A stretch of 64,000 bases of DNA, taken from NCBI GenBank assembly GCA_015059335.1, contig SVAP01000002.1, positions 76,170-140,169 of the forward strand. Direction: 5' to 3'. Below are positions 750 through 28,980 of this stretch, piece after piece; the first letter of the stretch is position 1, and each line of letters starts with the position of its first letter. The stretch comes from Bacillota bacterium. Its GTDB lineage: Bacteria; Bacillota_I; Bacilli_A; RF39; UBA660. The notes below the pieces were generated by a model. That model saw only the letters and a program-made list of their open reading frames with translations. It was not told the DNA's origin and did no database searches. Position numbers and translations under genes: made by a program.

Positions 750-916
750 AATTACTAAAATGTTAACTTTTTAATCAAATATATCAAAAACACTTGAAAA
801 AAGAAAAAAAAGACATATAATAGGTGATGAAAAAGCAATTAAAGACAAATTCTTAATAAAAGCAGTACTATCAACTAATAATTGCATTTCACATTATATA
901 AGAGAGGGTAATGGAA

Positions 917-2413
917 ATGAATTTAAAAACAAAGAAGATAATATCTTCATTATTGATTGCTGCAAATCTAGCAATGCCTGCTAATATAACTTTAGCAAAA
1001 GAAGAATCAAAAACTCATCAAGAAGTAAAAGTATTTTTTAATGATGAACAAATTGAGTTTGACCAACAACCAGTAATAGTTGATGGAAGAACAAAAGTGC
1101 CTTTTAGATCAATATTTGAAACAATGGGTACTATTGTATACTATAGAGAAAGTGATAATAGTATACTTGGGCTAACAAGAGATGGTGATATGATATATCA
1201 TGTAGTTGGTACAAATAAAGCAACTATAAATGGTGTTGAAAAAACCTATGATAGTGTATCAGAAATAGTTAATGGTAGAACATTAATACCAATAAGAATG
1301 GTATCTGATTTACTAAATGCACAAGTTGTATGGAATGATAAAACAAAAACAATTGAAATTGATAAGGCTATAATATCTAATGTATACAGTGAAAAAGTTA
1401 GAGGAATAATGGGATGCGCTCTTGATCAAAACTTCAATCCAGAAGATTTTGATAGATATGTTAATTACCAATATAAAAATTGGGGTATGGATCCTAAACA
1501 AGTTATAATTGATGTTAATATGGACATGGATAGAGAATTAGTGTTATTAAATGATGGTGATAAATATCCAAGTTTTGATTACGAATATTATGGTCCAAGA
1601 CCAGAGGATATCGAAATAGTTAAAAATCCACATGATCCACTAGTGTATTTAAATAAGTTTAATAGACTTCCAGATGGATTTGAACCAACTAATATTACTA
1701 ATTTTTATGATATTGATTATATTCTTTCTAAAGAAGAATCACGCGGGTCAGAATCGTGGTATAAAATTAAATATTCATTTCTAAAAATGAAAGAAGAACT
1801 TGTTCCAATAATAAAACAAATGTTAAATGAAAATAAGGATAATTTGGAAAAAAATTATTGTGAGGAGTTATCAGTTATTAGGCATGGATACTTAGAAGTT
1901 AAAGATATTGAATTTGATTATGACTTAAATTTTAACCCTAGAGATGACGATCCTTATCATAGATTACAATTTGATACGTTTGCTTTACCATATCATTCAG
2001 AATATCAAACTGGTTATGCATTTTCTTATTTATTTGGTTATAGTCCACATAGTTCTCCAGACACTACTTATTTTAATTGTATGACTTTAGGGTTAGAACC
2101 AGACATGTATACTCTTAGAGGTATGTATTATACTAATCCTAATAATACTTTTCTTAGAACATATGAACAATTTGAATGGTTAGAAAATAATGCATACAAA
2201 TATGGTATTATACAAAGATATCCGAAAGGAAAAGAACATATAACAAGATATTTATATCAACCTCATGTATATAGATATGTTGGTAAAGAAGTTGCTAAAA
2301 TAATGCATGATAATAATTGGTGTTTTGATGAATATTATGCAAGATATCTTGTTACTTCAGAATATAAAACTGATTTAGAATCAACTAAAAAGAAAGTTTT
2401 AGATAGATATTAA
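917..2413 (+). CDS. Secreted stalk-domain protein with a VanY-like domain lacking the usual metal-site residues
   Basis: A signal peptide (residues 1-27, ending near LAKE) precedes a tandem copper-amine-oxidase-N 'stalk' domain with the typical VDGRTKVPFR and VNGRTLIPIR repeats (about 35-145). The C-terminal third keeps the scaffold of D-Ala-D-Ala carboxypeptidases of the VanY/M15B type: SEYQTGYAFS, then EWLENNAYKYG..RYPKGKE, then QPHVYRYVG. The residues expected for zinc binding and catalysis are changed. The His and Asp of SxHxxGxAxD are Tyr363 and Ser370. In EPWHYR the Glu is Gln448 and the ligand His position is Val451. It is therefore probably a non-catalytic wall-binding protein. ATG 917 is preferred over ATG 911 because AGAGGG at 903-908 lies 8 bases before 917 but only 2 before 911. 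Confidence 0.7.
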   Translation: MNLKTKKIISSLLIAANLAMPANITLAKEESKTHQEVKVFFNDEQIEFDQQPVIVDGRTKVPFRSIFETMGTIVYYRESDNSILGLTRDGDMIYHVVGTNKATINGVEKTYDSVSEIVNGRTLIPIRMVSDLLNAQVVWNDKTKTIEIDKAIISNVYSEKVRGIMGCALDQNFNPEDFDRYVNYQYKNWGMDPKQVIIDVNMDMDRELVLLNDGDKYPSFDYEYYGPRPEDIEIVKNPHDPLVYLNKFNRLPDGFEPTNITNFYDIDYILSKEESRGSESWYKIKYSFLKMKEELVPIIKQMLNENKDNLEKNYCEELSVIRHGYLEVKDIEFDYDLNFNPRDDDPYHRLQFDTFALPYHSEYQTGYAFSYLFGYSPHSSPDTTYFNCMTLGLEPDMYTLRGMYYTNPNNTFLRTYEQFEWLENNAYKYGIIQRYPKGKEHITRYLYQPHVYRYVGKEVAKIMHDNNWCFDEYYARYLVTSEYKTDLESTKKKVLDRY

Positions 2414-2440
2414 TACGAATAGAAATATTCGTATTTTTAT
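2413..2440 (+). terminator. Rho-independent terminator overlapping a stop codon
   Basis: A perfect 9-bp stem ATACGAATA (2413-2421) / TATTCGTAT (2426-2434) with a GAAA loop is followed by a T-rich run. Its first base is the last base of the upstream TAA. Confidence 0.85.
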
Positions 2441-2497: not shown

Positions 2498-3103
2498 ATG
2501 AGAAAAAGTATTGTATTAGTAACATTATTATTGATTATGGTTTTGCCTCTAAAAGTTAATGCTGAATGTAGTATTAATGATCAAAATGAATTGTTAAAAC
2601 TTTCAAATCAAATCAAATACAAGTATAAATATGTTTCTGACAATCAATTTAAAATTGTTTTTAATAATGTTAGTGATAAATTATATATAATAGATGATAT
2701 AGGTCTTCAATATAGTAATAACGAAGAAAAAGATCTAACATATAAAGGTGGATTCACTAGAATTTTTCATATAGCCGCTAATGGAAATACAAATTGTTCT
2801 AACGAGATAATAAAAGATTTAACTATTAGACTACCTATATATAATAAATTTTCAGAAAATGAAAAATGTTCTAAAGAAGAATATAAAGATTTTAAATATT
2901 GTAATAAATTTTTATACGAGGAAATTAGTGAAGAAAAGTGGAAAAAAGAATTATCAAAATATGAAAGTAAATTAGAAAAAAATATAATAACTAATGATAA
3001 TAACATTGTTAAAATAGTAATTGGAATTGGACTTATAGTATTTACAATTCTAACAATAGGTATAATTATGATAATAAGAAAAAGAAAAAGGAGGAAGTTT
3101 TAG
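2498..3103 (+). CDS. Membrane-anchored extracytoplasmic protein of unknown function (first gene of surface cassette)
   Basis: A 201-residue protein with an N-terminal signal peptide (VLVTLLLIMVLPLKVNA), an extracellular domain of about 145 residues with four cysteines after the signal, and one C-terminal membrane helix (about 168-190) ending in a basic tail RKRKRRKF. This is the layout of a type I membrane protein facing outward. The segment RLPIYNKFS followed by a Cys and a YC pair looks like a conserved motif, but I do not recognise the family. A TATAAT box lies at 2463-2468 and AAGAGGGTG is the SD. The next gene starts directly after its stop codon, so the two are surely co-transcribed. 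Confidence 0.75.
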   Translation: MRKSIVLVTLLLIMVLPLKVNAECSINDQNELLKLSNQIKYKYKYVSDNQFKIVFNNVSDKLYIIDDIGLQYSNNEEKDLTYKGGFTRIFHIAANGNTNCSNEIIKDLTIRLPIYNKFSENEKCSKEEYKDFKYCNKFLYEEISEEKWKKELSKYESKLEKNIITNDNNIVKIVIGIGLIVFTILTIGIIMIIRKRKRRKF

Positions 3104-5716
3104 ATGAAAAATACAAAGATTAAAAAAATCTTCTTTCTTTTTAGTGTAATACTAATTATGTGTTTTATATTTCCATTAGATATTAATGCTCAAAATATAT
3201 GTGGTGTAGATAGATCATGTGATGCTGTTGGAAGTGCTTGTGGTGGAACTGGTAGTTTTGGAACACATACTAATGAATTTGGTAAACATTATAGTGGTAT
3301 AGTAGCTGAATGTATGAAAATGTCCGCATCTGATGCTAATGGTGGAGGGGGATATTACACTTGTATTAATGATGAATATGTAAATGGTGCAAATGGTGGT
3401 TTTCGTAAAGTAGATAATGGAAATAGCAAAAAAGAACAACTTGCACAATTTGATTTAGGAATTTTTAATACATGGAGTTTAAGTGGTAGTGGAAACGGAT
3501 GGCAAAAAGATGCCGGATTAGGCATTCAAACTTGTCCAGGAATGAATATCACTTATACAAGAACACAAAGTATTCCTGGAGCAGTAAAAGATAAAAAGAA
3601 TTTAAAAATTATAAGTATCAAATTATTATTAAGTGATGGAGATATTAATAAATATTGGTCTGGAAATGAGGCTGAAGGAATTTGGAATTGGTCATTACAA
3701 GAAGGTAGTGCATCTATTGAACTTTTAGATAATGGTAATTATGATGATGGTCACTATAGTTTTAAAATTTCTATTAATAATCTTGGATCCAAATCAGGAA
3801 TTGGTGGTTCAGGTTTAGGAATGAACGGTAGAGTTAGTGGACATGCAAATTATGTTAGGGCGTATCACTACTATATTCCAATGGAAATTATATGGGAATA
3901 TGATAATGAAAACTATGATCCTTGTGAAGATGCTAATTATGCATATGATAATCCTGGTAAATGTTGTGATGATTATCCTGAAACATGTTGTGATAAACCT
4001 GACTATTTAAAAGAAAAAGGATATACTGATGCTTATAACTTTTGTTGTAGAGAAGGGGAATATAACTATTATGGTAATTCTACTAAAGCATTGCCAACAT
4101 TTAGAAAATATTTTATATATGCTGGTGAAATAGATAGATTATGTCCAAGTGAAGTTTGTACTAAAGCAGAAGATTATGATTATGATGAGAGTACAAATAC
4201 TCCATCATATTGTTGTGAACAAGGTAAAAATGGTATGCTTAATGGTAATGCACTAAATATATATAACTCTTATAAAGGTAACTGTAATAAAGAAGTTACT
4301 GAATGTAATGTTAGTAAGTGTAGTAATACACAATATTTTGAAGATAATACAAGGTGTTGTTGTAATGATTCTAGATATTCATCAAGTAGTAAGTGTAAAT
4401 ATATTCCTGATAGTGTATGGTCAAATTCTACATCATGTAAAAATACAACTTCTTCAAATGTAGCAACTGGTTCTAATAGGGATAATACAATAACTGAATC
4501 AATTGATTTTCTTGAATATACAACATTATCTGATATGAAGAAAAATGTTTTAAAGGCTGGTACAGGTTTTGAATATAAAGTTAAAGTAAGACATACAATA
4601 ACTAGGAGTTATAAAGGTACTACAAGTTTTGATTATACTAATTATGTAGATCCTGATTCAAGTGATATCCGTGATATTAAAAACGAAATTACGGATACAA
4701 TTGAAGGATATACTGATGCAAATACGAGCGATGATGAAAATAAAATTAAACAGTTTTTAACTGATAATTCTAGTAATACTTCAACATTTATGCTTAATGG
4801 TACTACGTCTGATTTATCAAGTAGGTACATTTTAAACGATATGAATAATGATGGAAATATTGATAATAATGATATAACAGTAATTTCAAATGGAGTAGGT
4901 AGAAATAGTAGAGTAAGTTATACATATAAAGAATGGAGATATGGAAGACATATGGATCCATATCTTGATGAAGAAACGGATTATATGAATATACCTTTAT
5001 CAAAAACTTATGTATATGAATATGAAATTATACTCTCACAAAAACAAATCGCCAAATTAACTGGTAATGTTATAGAAAGTAATACAAAAACAACAGAATA
5101 CATGGATGGTGGAAATAAATTTTATAGCGAAACAACTTCTTATTCTGGTGTTTACGATTTTAATATTTCTATTGAAGATAGTGGGATAACTGGAAATTTA
5201 TCTACTCCATCATCAGGATTTAAATGTCAATATGGTGTGGTTAATGAAATAACAAAAAATGGTAAAGTAGATACTTCCATTCCTGGCGAACCTACATTTA
5301 ATGAAGAAGATGATAAAGGTAGAGGATTTTATTTCAGACAAATATCATTATCTAATCCTTTCCCTAAAGGTAGAAATCCAGGACTAAATTGGGATAAGTA
5401 TTATGATAAAAACTCTGGTGTTGCACAGTATATAACACATTCAGGGAAACGTGATAGCTATGGTAGTGAAGGCGATAAAAAACTTGATAGTGTATACACT
5501 AAAGAACCAATATATGAAATCACTATTGATTCATATTTAATCAATCAAATTAAAAATTATAATAGAGATAATGGATATGATTATAGTTGGGATGGAATGG
5601 TAAGTAAAGCTTATAATGCTCTTGATTCTACAAGTTCTTTTATTGAAGATGATTTTAAGGACTATATAAAAATTAGAACTGGATTTGATACATCAGTTAA
5701 AGTAGGTGATTTTTAA
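3104..5716 (+). CDS. Large secreted cysteine-rich protein with one EF-hand-like loop (unknown function)
   Basis: An 870-residue protein with a clear signal peptide (KKIFFLFSVILIMCFIFPLDINAQ). I count 26 cysteines, most of them between residues about 275 and 450, in CC and CCC clusters such as KCCDDY, TCCDKP, FCC, YCC and RCCCND. This predicts a disulfide-knotted module. A 12-residue loop DMNNDGNIDNND (579-590) has the spacing of a calcium-binding EF-hand/dockerin loop. The protein has no C-terminal anchor, LPXTG motif or second membrane helix, so it is either released or held by its partners. It lies between a one-pass membrane protein and a small N-terminally anchored protein whose start overlaps its stop. 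Function unknown; a structural surface component is the simplest reading. Confidence 0.75.
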   Translation: MKNTKIKKIFFLFSVILIMCFIFPLDINAQNICGVDRSCDAVGSACGGTGSFGTHTNEFGKHYSGIVAECMKMSASDANGGGGYYTCINDEYVNGANGGFRKVDNGNSKKEQLAQFDLGIFNTWSLSGSGNGWQKDAGLGIQTCPGMNITYTRTQSIPGAVKDKKNLKIISIKLLLSDGDINKYWSGNEAEGIWNWSLQEGSASIELLDNGNYDDGHYSFKISINNLGSKSGIGGSGLGMNGRVSGHANYVRAYHYYIPMEIIWEYDNENYDPCEDANYAYDNPGKCCDDYPETCCDKPDYLKEKGYTDAYNFCCREGEYNYYGNSTKALPTFRKYFIYAGEIDRLCPSEVCTKAEDYDYDESTNTPSYCCEQGKNGMLNGNALNIYNSYKGNCNKEVTECNVSKCSNTQYFEDNTRCCCNDSRYSSSSKCKYIPDSVWSNSTSCKNTTSSNVATGSNRDNTITESIDFLEYTTLSDMKKNVLKAGTGFEYKVKVRHTITRSYKGTTSFDYTNYVDPDSSDIRDIKNEITDTIEGYTDANTSDDENKIKQFLTDNSSNTSTFMLNGTTSDLSSRYILNDMNNDGNIDNNDITVISNGVGRNSRVSYTYKEWRYGRHMDPYLDEETDYMNIPLSKTYVYEYEIILSQKQIAKLTGNVIESNTKTTEYMDGGNKFYSETTSYSGVYDFNISIEDSGITGNLSTPSSGFKCQYGVVNEITKNGKVDTSIPGEPTFNEEDDKGRGFYFRQISLSNPFPKGRNPGLNWDKYYDKNSGVAQYITHSGKRDSYGSEGDKKLDSVYTKEPIYEITIDSYLINQIKNYNRDNGYDYSWDGMVSKAYNALDSTSSFIEDDFKDYIKIRTGFDTSVKVGDF

Positions 5717-6132
5717 TGAAAGAATCGTTTTGGGGATATTTAATAATTATACTTGGAGTACTTACTCTTTCTGTAATATTACTATTTAATGATGTAACAA
5801 ATACTAATGATCAAAATTATTATTTAGTAAAAGAAGTTACAGAAGCTGCAATGATTGATGCGATAGATATTGCATATTATCGTCAAACTGGTATTTTAGC
5901 TATTAACAAAGATAAGTTTGCAGAAAATTTTATTAGAAGATACGCTGAAAGTGCTTCAGCTGGTAAAACATATAATATAAAAATATATGATGTTGTTGAA
6001 CAGCCACCTAAAGTAAGTTTAAGTGTTAGTTCTAAATCAAATGTTTTTAACTTTACTGGTACTGCTGAAACGTTTGATATAATAAATAAAATAGATGCAA
6101 TTCTAGAAAGCAGAGAACAAGCAGAGGATTAG
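5716..6132 (+). CDS. Small membrane-anchored pilin/TadE-like protein (third gene of surface cassette)
   Basis: A 138-residue protein with one N-terminal membrane helix (WGYLIIILGVLTLSVILLF) and an outward domain. The region just after the helix (VKEVTEAAMIDAIDIAYYR) resembles the start of TadE/pseudopilin-like minor subunits, but no canonical prepilin cleavage motif is present. The ATG overlaps the last base of the preceding stop (TAATG), so translation is probably coupled to the cysteine-rich protein. A terminator overlaps its own stop codon, closing the cassette. Family assignment is tentative. Confidence 0.65.
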   Translation: MKESFWGYLIIILGVLTLSVILLFNDVTNTNDQNYYLVKEVTEAAMIDAIDIAYYRQTGILAINKDKFAENFIRRYAESASAGKTYNIKIYDVVEQPPKVSLSVSSKSNVFNFTGTAETFDIINKIDAILESREQAED

Positions 6133-6156
6133 TATTTAATACTAGTCCTTTTTCTT
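6126..6156 (+). terminator. Rho-independent terminator of the surface cassette
   Basis: GGATTAGTA (6126-6134) pairs with TACTAGTCC (6140-6148) with one G-T pair, followed by a T run. It overlaps the TAG stop of the 138-residue protein. Confidence 0.75.
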
Positions 6157-13849: not shown

Positions 13850-13872
13850 AAAGACCAAATATTGGTCTTTTT
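13848..13872. terminator. Bidirectional terminator between the sugar transferase and spoIVA
   Basis: A perfect 11-bp stem AAAAAGACCAA (13848-13858) / TTGGTCTTTTT (13862-13872) serves both converging genes. Confidence 0.88.
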
Positions 13873-15346
13873 ATAATACAATCGCAATCATGTTACTTGA
13901 ACCTTTATTAATAATTTTTGTAAGTGTACCTTGTAATTTATATCTAATATTATCTGGCATCATAGAAAGTTTTGCTTGGATTCCTTCTTGTACAATAACA
14001 TCTAAACTTCTTCCGAATATTTCACTTTTCCAAATGTTTTCTGGTTCATTTTCCATATCACGGGTTAAATAATTGATTAGTTCTTTACTTTGTAATTCAC
14101 TACCTATAATAGGTTCAAAAGTACTTTCAACATCAACTCTAATCATATGTATAGATGGCGCAACTGCTTTTAATTTAACACCATATCTACTACCTTGTTT
14201 TATAATTTCTGGTGTATCTAGTTTCATATCTTTTAGAGAAGGGGAAGCAATGCCATATCCACTTTGTTTAACTTGTTTTAATGCACTTTTTATTTGATCA
14301 TATTCAATTTTAGCTTCATTATAATCTTGGAATAATTTTAATAATTCTGCTTTTGAATTAACATTTATACCAATACTATCTTTTAGTATTTCATCAAATA
14401 ATTCATTTGGTGCATTTAAATTAATTGTTACTTCACCGGTAGAAGTATTAACCTCTGATAAGTATGCTTTTGAAATATATTCACAATTTCCAAAGTGTGT
14501 TGTAATGGTGTCTACATCTCTAAGTTTATCAATGTCAACAACACTTTCTTTGATTTTATCGATATATATTTTCTTTAACCAATTATCAGGATTTAAAATT
14601 GAAATCCATTCTGGAATATTAACACTAACTTCTAATACTGGAAATTCATATAAAGCTTCTCTAAGTATTTCAGTTACATCTTTTTCGCTCATAGTATCAA
14701 CGTTCATTGGTATAACTGGAACATTATATTCATTTCTTAATTTTTCTGCAATTTTAATTGTATCAGGCATCATTGGATGAATAGAATTAAGTACAACTAT
14801 AAATGGTTTATTTAATTCTTTTAATTCTTCCATAACTTCTTTTTCAGCATCTAGGTAATCACTTCTTGATAATTCACCAAATGAACCATCAGATGTAACA
14901 ACTATTCCGATAGATGAATGGTCTTTAATAACTTTTTCAGTGCCGATTTCTGCGGCTTCTACAAACGGTATTTCTTCATCATACCATGGTGTTTTTACCA
15001 TTCTAGGTCCATTTTCATCTTCGTATCCTTTAGCATTTTTAACAATATAACCAACACAGTCAATAAGTCTTACATTAACATCGATCTCATCAATAGAAAT
15101 ATTAACAGCATTACTAGGCACAAATTTAGGTTCAGTAGTCATAATTTGTTTGCCAGCACCACTTTGTGGTAATTCATCAATAACTCTTTTTTTCTCAAAT
15201 TCATCTGAAATATTAGGAATAACTATATTTTCCATGAATTTTTTTATAAAAGTAGATTTACCGGTTCTAACAGCTCCAACAACACCTAAATAAATATCTC
15301 CATTTGTTCTTTCAGCAATACTCTTAATAATTTCATTCTTATTCAT
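13871..15346 (-). CDS. spoIVA: Stage IV sporulation protein A
   Basis: The ATPase that forms the basement layer of the spore coat on the forespore surface. At 491 residues it is the usual family length. It starts with DIYLGVVGAVRTGKST, whose Walker A spans 24-32 with Lys30, and has the DCVGY-type Walker B and the conserved SDGSFGELSR segment. The C-terminal domain that inserts into the membrane through SpoVM is complete, including the hydrophobic end NMIAIVL. It is read in the opposite direction to nifJ, with its own sigma-E-like promoter, and shares a terminator with the converging sugar transferase gene. Confidence 0.96.
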   Translation of the reverse strand: MNKNEIIKSIAERTNGDIYLGVVGAVRTGKSTFIKKFMENIVIPNISDEFEKKRVIDELPQSGAGKQIMTTEPKFVPSNAVNISIDEIDVNVRLIDCVGYIVKNAKGYEDENGPRMVKTPWYDEEIPFVEAAEIGTEKVIKDHSSIGIVVTSDGSFGELSRSDYLDAEKEVMEELKELNKPFIVVLNSIHPMMPDTIKIAEKLRNEYNVPVIPMNVDTMSEKDVTEILREALYEFPVLEVSVNIPEWISILNPDNWLKKIYIDKIKESVVDIDKLRDVDTITTHFGNCEYISKAYLSEVNTSTGEVTINLNAPNELFDEILKDSIGINVNSKAELLKLFQDYNEAKIEYDQIKSALKQVKQSGYGIASPSLKDMKLDTPEIIKQGSRYGVKLKAVAPSIHMIRVDVESTFEPIIGSELQSKELINYLTRDMENEPENIWKSEIFGRSLDVIVQEGIQAKLSMMPDNIRYKLQGTLTKIINKGSSNMIAIVL

Positions 15347-22894: not shown

Positions 22895-24106
22895 ATGAAA
22901 AAGTTTTTAAAATCATTACTAACGCTTTTATTATTTGTAATATTATTTATTCCTAATAAAATTAATGCTTTAGAAAATGTTAATATATATTTATTTTATG
23001 GTGACGGATGTCCACATTGTAGAGCGCTCGAAGAAAAGTTAGACGAAATAAAACTTGATTATCCCAATATAAATATCCATTATTATGAAACTTGGTACAA
23101 TAAAAAAAACTCAAAAAAACTTGATGAAATAGAAAACTTGCTAGATATTAATATTCGTGGTGTTCCATTTACTGTGATTGGTGGAAAAACATTATCTGGA
23201 TATATGGAAGGTATAACTGATGAGGAAATAATTGATTCTATAGAGTATTATTCTATAAGTGAAAATAAATGTAATGATGTAGTTGGTAATTATTTAGGTG
23301 TTACAGAAGAAAATAAAAAATTAAAAAATTGTATTGAAATTAAAGAAAATAAAAATTTTAAAATAAATATACCGTTTATTGGTTATGTCAATACTAAAGA
23401 TTTATCGTTGCCAATAGTCTCAATATTAATTGGTGCATTAGATGGTTTTAATCCTTGTGCGATGTGGATACTATTATTCTTAATAACAATGCTTTTAAAT
23501 TTAAAAGATAAAAAGAGAATGTGGCTACTTGGTTTAACATTTTTAACAACTTCTGCGCTAGTATATCTATTATTTATGATCTCTTGGTTAAATATTGCTA
23601 AATATGTTGGGAGTATATTTTATATAAGATTATTAATTTCCTTAGTAGCTATTGTTGGCGGTGGAATTAATTTAAAAAATTATTTTAAAACTAAAAATGA
23701 TGGATGTCATGTTGTAAAAAAAGAAAAGCGTAAAAAAATACTAACAAAAATCAAAAAATTTACTAGTGAAAAGAGTTTAATTTTATCATTATTGGGAATA
23801 ATAACTTTAGCAGTTTCTGTTAATTTTATAGAGCTAGTTTGTTCTGCAGGACTTCCTGTAATATTCACACAAGTACTATCTATGAATGATTTATCTGGTA
23901 TGGAATATTCTGCTTATATATTTTTATATATTTTATTTTTCCTTATTGATGATATAATAGTTTTCGTTATTGCGATGAAAACATTAACTGTAACTGGTAT
24001 TTCTACTAAATATGGTAAATTTTCACATTTAATTGGTGGTATTATAATGATATTGATTGGTATTTTATTAATATTTAAACCAGAATGGTTAATGTTTAAT
24101 TTTTAG
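22895..24106 (+). CDS. Thioredoxin-CcdA fusion: membrane thiol-disulfide electron carrier
   Basis: A 403-residue protein. A signal/anchor segment (8-25) leads to an extracytoplasmic thioredoxin-like domain with YGDGCPHCR (CxxC) and the cis-Pro loop RGVPFT. From about residue 165 it has six hydrophobic helices of the CcdA/DsbD type, with paired cysteines in GFNPCAMW and ELVCSAGLP that carry electrons across the membrane. The domain order differs from classical DsbD because the thioredoxin part is N-terminal. It lies between a cytoplasmic thioredoxin-like gene and thiI. Reducing surface disulfides, for example in the Cys-rich secreted protein at 3104, is possible but unproven. Confidence 0.82.
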   Translation: MKKFLKSLLTLLLFVILFIPNKINALENVNIYLFYGDGCPHCRALEEKLDEIKLDYPNINIHYYETWYNKKNSKKLDEIENLLDINIRGVPFTVIGGKTLSGYMEGITDEEIIDSIEYYSISENKCNDVVGNYLGVTEENKKLKNCIEIKENKNFKINIPFIGYVNTKDLSLPIVSILIGALDGFNPCAMWILLFLITMLLNLKDKKRMWLLGLTFLTTSALVYLLFMISWLNIAKYVGSIFYIRLLISLVAIVGGGINLKNYFKTKNDGCHVVKKEKRKKILTKIKKFTSEKSLILSLLGIITLAVSVNFIELVCSAGLPVIFTQVLSMNDLSGMEYSAYIFLYILFFLIDDIIVFVIAMKTLTVTGISTKYGKFSHLIGGIIMILIGILLIFKPEWLMFNF

Positions 24107-28599: not shown

Positions 28600-28980
28600 A
28601 TGTGCAATAAACGTGGATTTACATTGATAGAACTAATTGTAAGTATTTCCTTGATACTAATACTTTTTATTGTAGTTGTTCCACTTGGAACAAATCTAAT
28701 TCAAAATGCTAATAAAAAACAATGCAATACATTGGTTGAAGATATTTTAACTGATGCAGATTTATATGTTTTAGATAGACCTGATTTTAATGATACATCA
28801 ATACCATTACTTACTTTATATGATGAAGGATATTTAGAGGAAGAATATGATTTTAAAAATGGATATGTATTGGAATCTGGCGAATTAAAATATGAGGGTG
28901 TAGTTAAAAATGCACAAATTAATATTGATAATAGCGATGGATATAATAATTATGAATTAAGTGTTGATGTGTGTAATTAA
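28600..28980 (+). CDS. Type IV prepilin-like protein (pseudopilin)
   Basis: A 126-residue protein with a textbook class III leader: CNKRG followed by FTLIELIVSISLILILFIVVVPLG, with cleavage expected between Gly6 and Phe7 and Glu at +5. After the helix it has a short soluble domain with two cysteines (KKQC and the C-terminal VCN) that may pair. It resembles competence pseudopilins, but no assembly ATPase, platform protein or prepilin peptidase is in the window. Two TATAAT boxes (28562, 28572) and the SD AGGTGAT precede it. Confidence 0.85.
   Translation: MCNKRGFTLIELIVSISLILILFIVVVPLGTNLIQNANKKQCNTLVEDILTDADLYVLDRPDFNDTSIPLLTLYDEGYLEEEYDFKNGYVLESGELKYEGVVKNAQINIDNSDGYNNYELSVDVCN

Follow-up and report, generated by a model that had tools for sequence, protein, structure and literature searches.

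A conserved three-gene cassette as a candidate surface head of a composite Tad-like and type IV secretion operon in uncultured gut Bacilli

Three adjacent genes in a 64,000-nucleotide stretch of an uncultured Bacillota genome (contig SVAP01000002.1, positions 76,170 to 140,169; this whole stretch is referred to here as the window) encode a type I membrane protein, a secreted cysteine-rich protein (CysR), and a small membrane protein of the DUF5411 family. Do these three proteins act on their own at the cell surface, or do they belong to something larger? An earlier note on the window had proposed that they form one extracellular complex, a previously unrecognised surface assembly. We favor the reading, with a probability of about 0.58, that the trio forms the extracellular surface head of a chromosomally encoded machine in which a Tad-like half for pilus assembly is joined to a type IV secretion system (T4SS) half.

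The local arrangement described in the earlier note, three genes with zero or overlapping spacing between two flanking terminators, was found in full. The stop codon of the type I gene abuts the start codon of the CysR gene (TAG followed directly by ATG, 0 bp apart), the CysR and DUF5411 genes overlap by 1 bp (TAATG), and a hairpin with a T-run lies on either side of the cassette (Table 1). The hairpin at 2412–2440 escaped the terminator scan because its A+T content is too high for the scan's G-C rule.

Of the 37 family genomes searched, 34 contained DUF5411, among them the genome that contains the window (G000, a 1.3-Mb low-GC assembly that is 89.7% complete; hereafter the window genome); 23 genomes from other families of the class gave a single marginal match. 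When 392 genomes from across the phylum were sampled, nearly all above-cut-off matches fell within that same family, which we take to correspond to GTDB order RF39; its named relatives are uncultured "Bacilli/Tenericutes" metagenome-assembled genomes, Candidatus Faecisoma, and Candidatus Ventrenecus. One genome that lacks both DUF5411 and VirB4 (G016) was considered as a case of co-loss and dismissed, as VirD4 is present and the absence is probably an assembly gap.

The earlier note had suggested looking for the same trio near secretion ATPase or Tad genes in other genomes, and had taken regular separation of its members as evidence against a joint assembly. In most relatives the trio is tight and lies beside both kinds of gene. 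The gene upstream of DUF5411 is visible in 115 loci, and in 103 of these a Cys-rich gene is found immediately 5′; a CpaB-like gene lies immediately 3′ in 102 of 114. The median gap is −4 bp between the type I and CysR genes, 13 bp between CysR and DUF5411, and 18 bp between DUF5411 and CpaB. The members are parted in the remaining 12 of 115 loci, which have no Cys-rich gene directly before DUF5411; yet when five Faecisoma-like genomes with no CysR in the operon were tested, all five proved to encode it elsewhere.

In these relatives, the trio heads a single operon of ~20 genes that joins Tad-like and T4SS-like genes. The first half encodes, in order, a CpaB-like protein, a T2SSE ATPase, TadB-like and TadC-like proteins, one or two pilin-like proteins of 65–90 residues, one or two TadE-like proteins, and a TadZ-like protein; the second half encodes one to four VirB2-like proteins, VirB6, a VirB3-like protein, a small conserved protein, VirB4, a SpoIID/M23 hydrolase, usually a lipoprotein-like protein, and VirD4. 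The order CpaB, CpaF, TadB, TadC occurs in 97 of 110 loci. TadZ is followed by VirB2 in 54 loci and VirB2 by VirB6 in 27; many contigs end earlier. The idea of one extracellular complex therefore survives insofar as the trio is conserved and tightly spaced, but not as a free-standing unit, because the trio heads the composite operon in relatives and is detached from it in the window genome.

The window genome carries the machine on contig C17 (L061 and L065) without the trio, the expected place of which is occupied by a divergent thioredoxin-like gene. The C17 ATPase matched Pfam T2SSE above the cut-off (7.5e-28, 97.7 bits). Against NCBIfam, the machine ATPase matched VirB11 (7.8e-33, 113.8 of 250 bits) slightly better than TadA (1.3e-29, 103.5 of 373 bits), both below cut-off. 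The CpaB-like protein (pilus_cpaB, 5.7e-9, 35.6 of 71 bits; RcpC, 8.6e-5, 22.9 of 28.8 bits) and the VirB2-like pilin (T4SS_pilin, E=4.6e-5, 23.8 of 26.6 bits) also scored below their cut-offs. VirB4 (AAA_10, 3.6e-11, 43.2 bits, cut-off 27.5; TraG P-loop, 42.2 bits, cut-off 25.8) and VirD4 (T4SS-DNA_transf, 6.2e-58; NF045973, 318.8 bits, cut-off 250) were recognised, and the peptidoglycan hydrolase of C17 combines SpoIID and M23. VirB6 was recognised as TrbL_4 in a homologue (L067; 2.1e-8, 34.3 bits, cut-off 27), the window genome's copy having no Pfam match. The TadB/TadC-like and TadZ-like proteins gave no direct Pfam match above cut-off, T2SSF included, and the names TadE-like, TadZ-like, and VirB3-like were assigned by position, size, and topology only. 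No prepilin peptidase was recognised among the operon genes of C17 and its relatives, although that family was not searched for specifically. The same genomes also have a separate canonical Tad locus and a type IV pilus (T4P) locus, and a peptidase-like gene was seen by inspection in the T4P/Tad locus L063.

How might a small membrane protein connect CysR to such a machine? The 138-residue protein matches Pfam DUF5411 (PF17424) over residues 1–133 (E=1.8e-53, 180.5 bits, cut-off 30), with a weak NCBIfam match to the Listeria LMxysn_1693 family (E=0.01). Its AlphaFold2 (AF2) model, with a predicted local distance difference test (pLDDT) score of 77.5, contains helices at residues 3–48, 52–58, and 65–79 plus three strands, a layout in which a long N-terminal helix precedes a beta-containing domain. 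The signature M[KR][ED][ASV] stands ahead of the hydrophobic helix in 56% of DUF5411 proteins, 64% of TadE-like proteins, and 84% of the small pilin-like proteins, and in 2 of 1226 other proteins. Elsewhere, DUF5411 forms the N-terminal domain of larger proteins, where it is fused to Peptidase_M15 (a D-Ala-D-Ala peptidase domain, with catalytic motifs present in some), to YkuD plus Big_2 (L,D-transpeptidase-like), or to a Cys-rich region that contains 44 Cys and is unrelated to CysR by hidden Markov model (HMM). As its fusion partners are different outer modules, DUF5411 appears to display surface modules on one base. Judged by its model layout and N-terminal signature, DUF5411 looks like a pilin-class protein, in line with the "pilin/TadE-like" call made earlier.

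The CysR precursor contains 27 cysteines, one of which lies within the signal peptide, leaving the 26 that had been counted before. Cysteine makes up 3.1% of its residues versus 1.15% for all ORFs in the window, and the noted clustering was confirmed: there are six CC dipeptides (one CCC) versus 0.8 expected from shuffled sequences (p ~1.5e-4). Nearly every member of the CysR family retains a high cysteine number (mostly 25 to 86 among the members listed), and CysR is the fastest-evolving member of the trio. In the type I ectodomain, C24, C100, C124, and C135 are invariant in 21 of 21 homologues. The cysteines of both proteins presumably form disulfides after export. The earlier note had invoked active disulfide handling and had offered a thioredoxin-CcdA protein encoded at 22895 as its provider. 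In 17 of 89 loci, a divergent thioredoxin-like gene is no more than four genes away from the type I gene, a weak link between such handling and the trio. The proposed provider gained little support: the protein at 22895, 17 kb from the trio, gave a sub-threshold thioredoxin/DsbA match, CcdA was not recognised in it, and nothing ties it to the trio specifically.

A Pfam search found no family above cut-off in the type I protein or CysR; in CysR it gave no TED (thioester domain), Cna, or LPXTG-type match and no enzymatic or toxin family. The last result bears on the proposal that CysR is not a structural head but an effector or toxin substrate delivered by the T4SS half, a role that would suit its rapid evolution, its variable size (~800–1972 aa across loci), and its tight linkage to VirB4/VirD4. 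Substrates of VirD4-dependent systems usually lack a Sec signal peptide, so the one carried by CysR counts against this role, as does its usual place beside two membrane proteins. We regard delivery of CysR as a substrate as very unlikely.

The window genome contains two further cassettes (C7:37195 and C1:30882), each consisting of VanY-like, type I, Cys-rich, and DUF5411 genes. All three cassettes lie away from the machine, and one detached cassette was found in a sister genome. The trio could thus be a self-standing surface adhesin complex in which CysR is held by the type I protein and DUF5411 and any use of the machine is only historical; the normal Sec signals and the cassette's own terminators are consistent with this. 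In most relatives, however, the cassette lies within a few bases of machine genes, DUF5411 and the pilin-like proteins of the machine share an N-terminal signature, and both genus members with detached cassettes (G000 and G001) retain the machine. A self-standing complex is, in our estimate, unlikely. The DUF5411 copies of the window genome are 80–83% identical to that of the window, or closer, and the CysR copies are ~29–35% identical, over the matching part only; this pattern is as would be expected for a constant DUF5411 base with variable CysR heads.

From the observed gene order, spacing, conservation, fusions, and signature, we infer an assembly route, an adhesin role, and movement of a substrate for the favored machine-head reading. 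DUF5411 would insert as a pilin-like subunit via its N-terminal helix, and the CpaF/TadB/TadC-like proteins would handle it along with the other small pilin-like subunits. It would then anchor Sec-exported CysR, a putative adhesin or receptor-binding tip, on the surface, with the type I protein as a membrane-bound partner or assembly factor, and disulfides formed after export would stabilise both secreted partners. The head could grip a target cell or surface during substrate transfer by the VirB4/VirD4 half. With its three head copies located apart from the machine, the window genome could supply one machine with different CysR variants on a near-constant DUF5411 base.

Several results weigh against this reading. 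Ordinary Sec signals are present on both the type I and the Cys-rich protein, the export of which does not require a machine, and the machine is absent from the cassette neighbourhood in the window genome. The names TadB and TadC rest on gene order, topology, and one intermediate, not on Pfam T2SSF; the intermediate is the TadB of locus L062, which links the family (HHalign 95%) to canonical TadB (92%). DUF5411 has no sequence match to TadE, and a search of its model against the PDB with Foldseek and VIA-align gave no significant match, with pilins absent from the top rows. The AF2 model of CysR, built with 24 homologues, was uninformative (pLDDT 37.5), and no fold could be assigned.

Is the composite instead the mating apparatus of an integrated conjugative element, with the trio as its mating-pair adhesin, like the thioester adhesin p34 of pLS20? 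Efficient conjugation requires the pLS20-type adhesin (PMC8092201), a similar operon in another family begins with a TED-like protein, and a related set is found on an element-like contig that has an SSB-like gene. In the window genome, however, no gene of the PF03432 relaxase family was found (other relaxase families were not searched), and the machine VirB4, which is present in most sister genomes and 67–78% identical across genera, looks vertically inherited, whereas VirB4 from other T4SS loci in the same genomes is 23–34% identical. We consider a role as a mating apparatus very unlikely. The element-like contig (L062, G000:C4, 9 kb) encodes SSB-like, weakly DUF5411-like, CpaF-TadB-TadC-like, and VirB6-like proteins and a 578-residue surface-like protein, and its set is a divergent cousin of the same composite. 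Related CpaF-TadB-TadC-VirB6 composites occur in other families of the class (L083, G041:C17; L086, G037:C22); L083 additionally has PrgI-like and VirB4 genes and is headed by the large TED-like protein, which has sub-threshold thioester-domain matches and a ChW match.

The VanY-like gene upstream of the cassette (Table 1), passed over in the earlier note, accompanies the trio within the genus of the window organism, with the same neighbour in L034, L035, L044, and L046. The zinc/catalytic motifs of the VanY D,D-carboxypeptidase, SxHxxGxAxD and ExWH, are lost in all five cassette copies and retained in a stand-alone VanY beside the machine (L061:14405–15520). As it lacks these motifs, the cassette VanY-like protein is probably a noncatalytic cell-wall protein, a pseudo-peptidase with a Cu_amine_oxidN1 domain.

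Other features surround the cassettes. Within the window genome, a cassette-bearing segment of 6 kb occurs in two copies that are 95% identical (L034, G000:C7:31000-45000; L035, G000:C1:24000-40000), and both copies are followed by genes for a SipW-like signal peptidase, an InlB-repeat protein, a PemK-like protein, and a large serine recombinase. The close duplication and the shared flank suggest that the segment was mobilised. The recombinase at L035:14004-15995 has a LysM domain apparently inserted within its Recombinase domain (residues 321–363). Among relatives, CAAX-protease and metallophosphoesterase genes often lie divergently just upstream of the trio (L037, L038, L039, L041, and many GTDB loci), and CotZ-like Cys-rich genes are close to it in several (L038, L039, L041). 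Elsewhere in the window, positions 28600–28980 encode a type IV prepilin-like protein (N_methyl motif) with no visible pilus cluster around it, and 13871–15346 (minus strand) encodes what appears by inspection to be a SpoIVA-like sporulation ATPase, within a 1.3-Mb genome.

Table 1. Features of the cassette and its upstream neighbour, in window coordinates
Feature	Positions	Strand	Basis and description
VanY-like neighbour (Cu_amine_oxidN1 + VanY-like domain)	911..2413	+	Pfam Cu_amine_oxidN1 5.2e-25, VanY 1.8e-8; terminator between this gene and the trio
Upstream terminator, hairpin + T-run	2412..2440	+	Sequence; fold -11.7 kcal/mol
Type I membrane protein	2498..3103	+	Open reading frame (ORF), 201 aa; signal peptide, ectodomain with 4 invariant Cys, C-terminal transmembrane segment ~residues 167-196
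CysR, secreted cysteine-rich protein	3104..5716	+	ORF, 870 aa; fast-evolving N-terminal part; HMM family of ~100 homologues
Cysteine-cluster region of CysR (residues 274-445, CC/CCC clusters)	3923..4438	+	Cys positions
Family-shared C-terminal region of CysR (residues ~480-870)	4541..5713	+	Iterative HMM matches and alignment
DUF5411 protein, pilin-like	5716..6132	+	ORF, 138 aa; MKES motif and long hydrophobic helix, then small alpha/beta domain; Pfam PF17424
Downstream terminator, hairpin + T-run	6123..6151	+	Terminator scan; fold -14.2 kcal/mol

The assembly is not wholly unrecognised, as the earlier note had supposed. Miller, Stern and Burstein (2022; PMC9523054) reported an operon, predicted to be a secretion system, that encodes DUF5411, CpaF, PilC/GspF, and an InlB-like surface protein, and the DUF5411/ATPase neighbourhood is thus not new. 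Their operon shares the CpaF, PilC/GspF, and DUF5411 neighbourhood with ours but comprises 8–9 genes, for which a resemblance to T4P and type II secretion systems alone was reported; the operon analyzed here runs on into VirB2/VirB6/VirB3/VirB4/VirD4-like genes, and we describe its Cys-rich and type I members. A literature search, limited to open-access papers, found no report of this continuation into a T4SS and nothing relevant on RF39/UBA660 together with a T4SS or pilus.

The first half of the operon resembles the Tad (type IVc) pilus in its VirB11/TadA-class ATPase, its CpaB-like protein, its two TadB/TadC-like membrane proteins, and its small pilin-like proteins that begin with a transmembrane segment. 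It differs in that the TadA and CpaB matches fall below curated cut-offs, T2SSF is unrecognised, no prepilin peptidase was seen in the operon, and a separate canonical Tad locus (L063) coexists in the same genomes. The pLS20 adhesin p34 (PMC8092201) is likewise a large Sec-exported surface protein encoded with a Gram-positive T4SS, but it has thioester and CnaB domains, whereas none were detected in CysR, which is cysteine-rich.

A 2025 review states that VirB11 is universally missing from Gram-positive T4SSs (PMC12857230), and a 2025 paper describes Gram-positive T4SS classes without VirB2 pilins (PMC12102498). In contrast, a VirB11/TadA-class ATPase and VirB2-like pilins here share an operon with VirB4 and VirD4 across a family of uncultured gut Bacilli. 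Because these components lie in one family-conserved operon, the trio offers a handle on how small-genome gut Bacilli may contact other cells, and DUF5411 gains a testable role. A broader proposal is that the family has a core chromosomal trait, one machine in which a Tad-like assembler with a VirB11-class ATPase and a relaxase-less T4SS with VirB2-like pilins carry exchangeable disulfide-rich heads for contact or exchange with partner cells; we consider this doubtful but put it forward tentatively.

The closest known relative in spirit would be the T4SS of Patescibacteria, in which relaxase-less systems with VirB2-like arrays have been described (PMC12102498). Like the system analyzed here, the Patescibacterial T4SSs are chromosomal, mostly relaxase-less systems of small-genome monoderms, with VirB2-like pilin arrays, VirB3/4/6, and VirD4 (PMC12102498, PMC12857230), and the contact or exchange proposed for the essential T4SS of Patescibacteria resembles the use suggested here. 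What sets the system of these Bacilli apart is its Cys-rich head and its Tad-like half for assembly.

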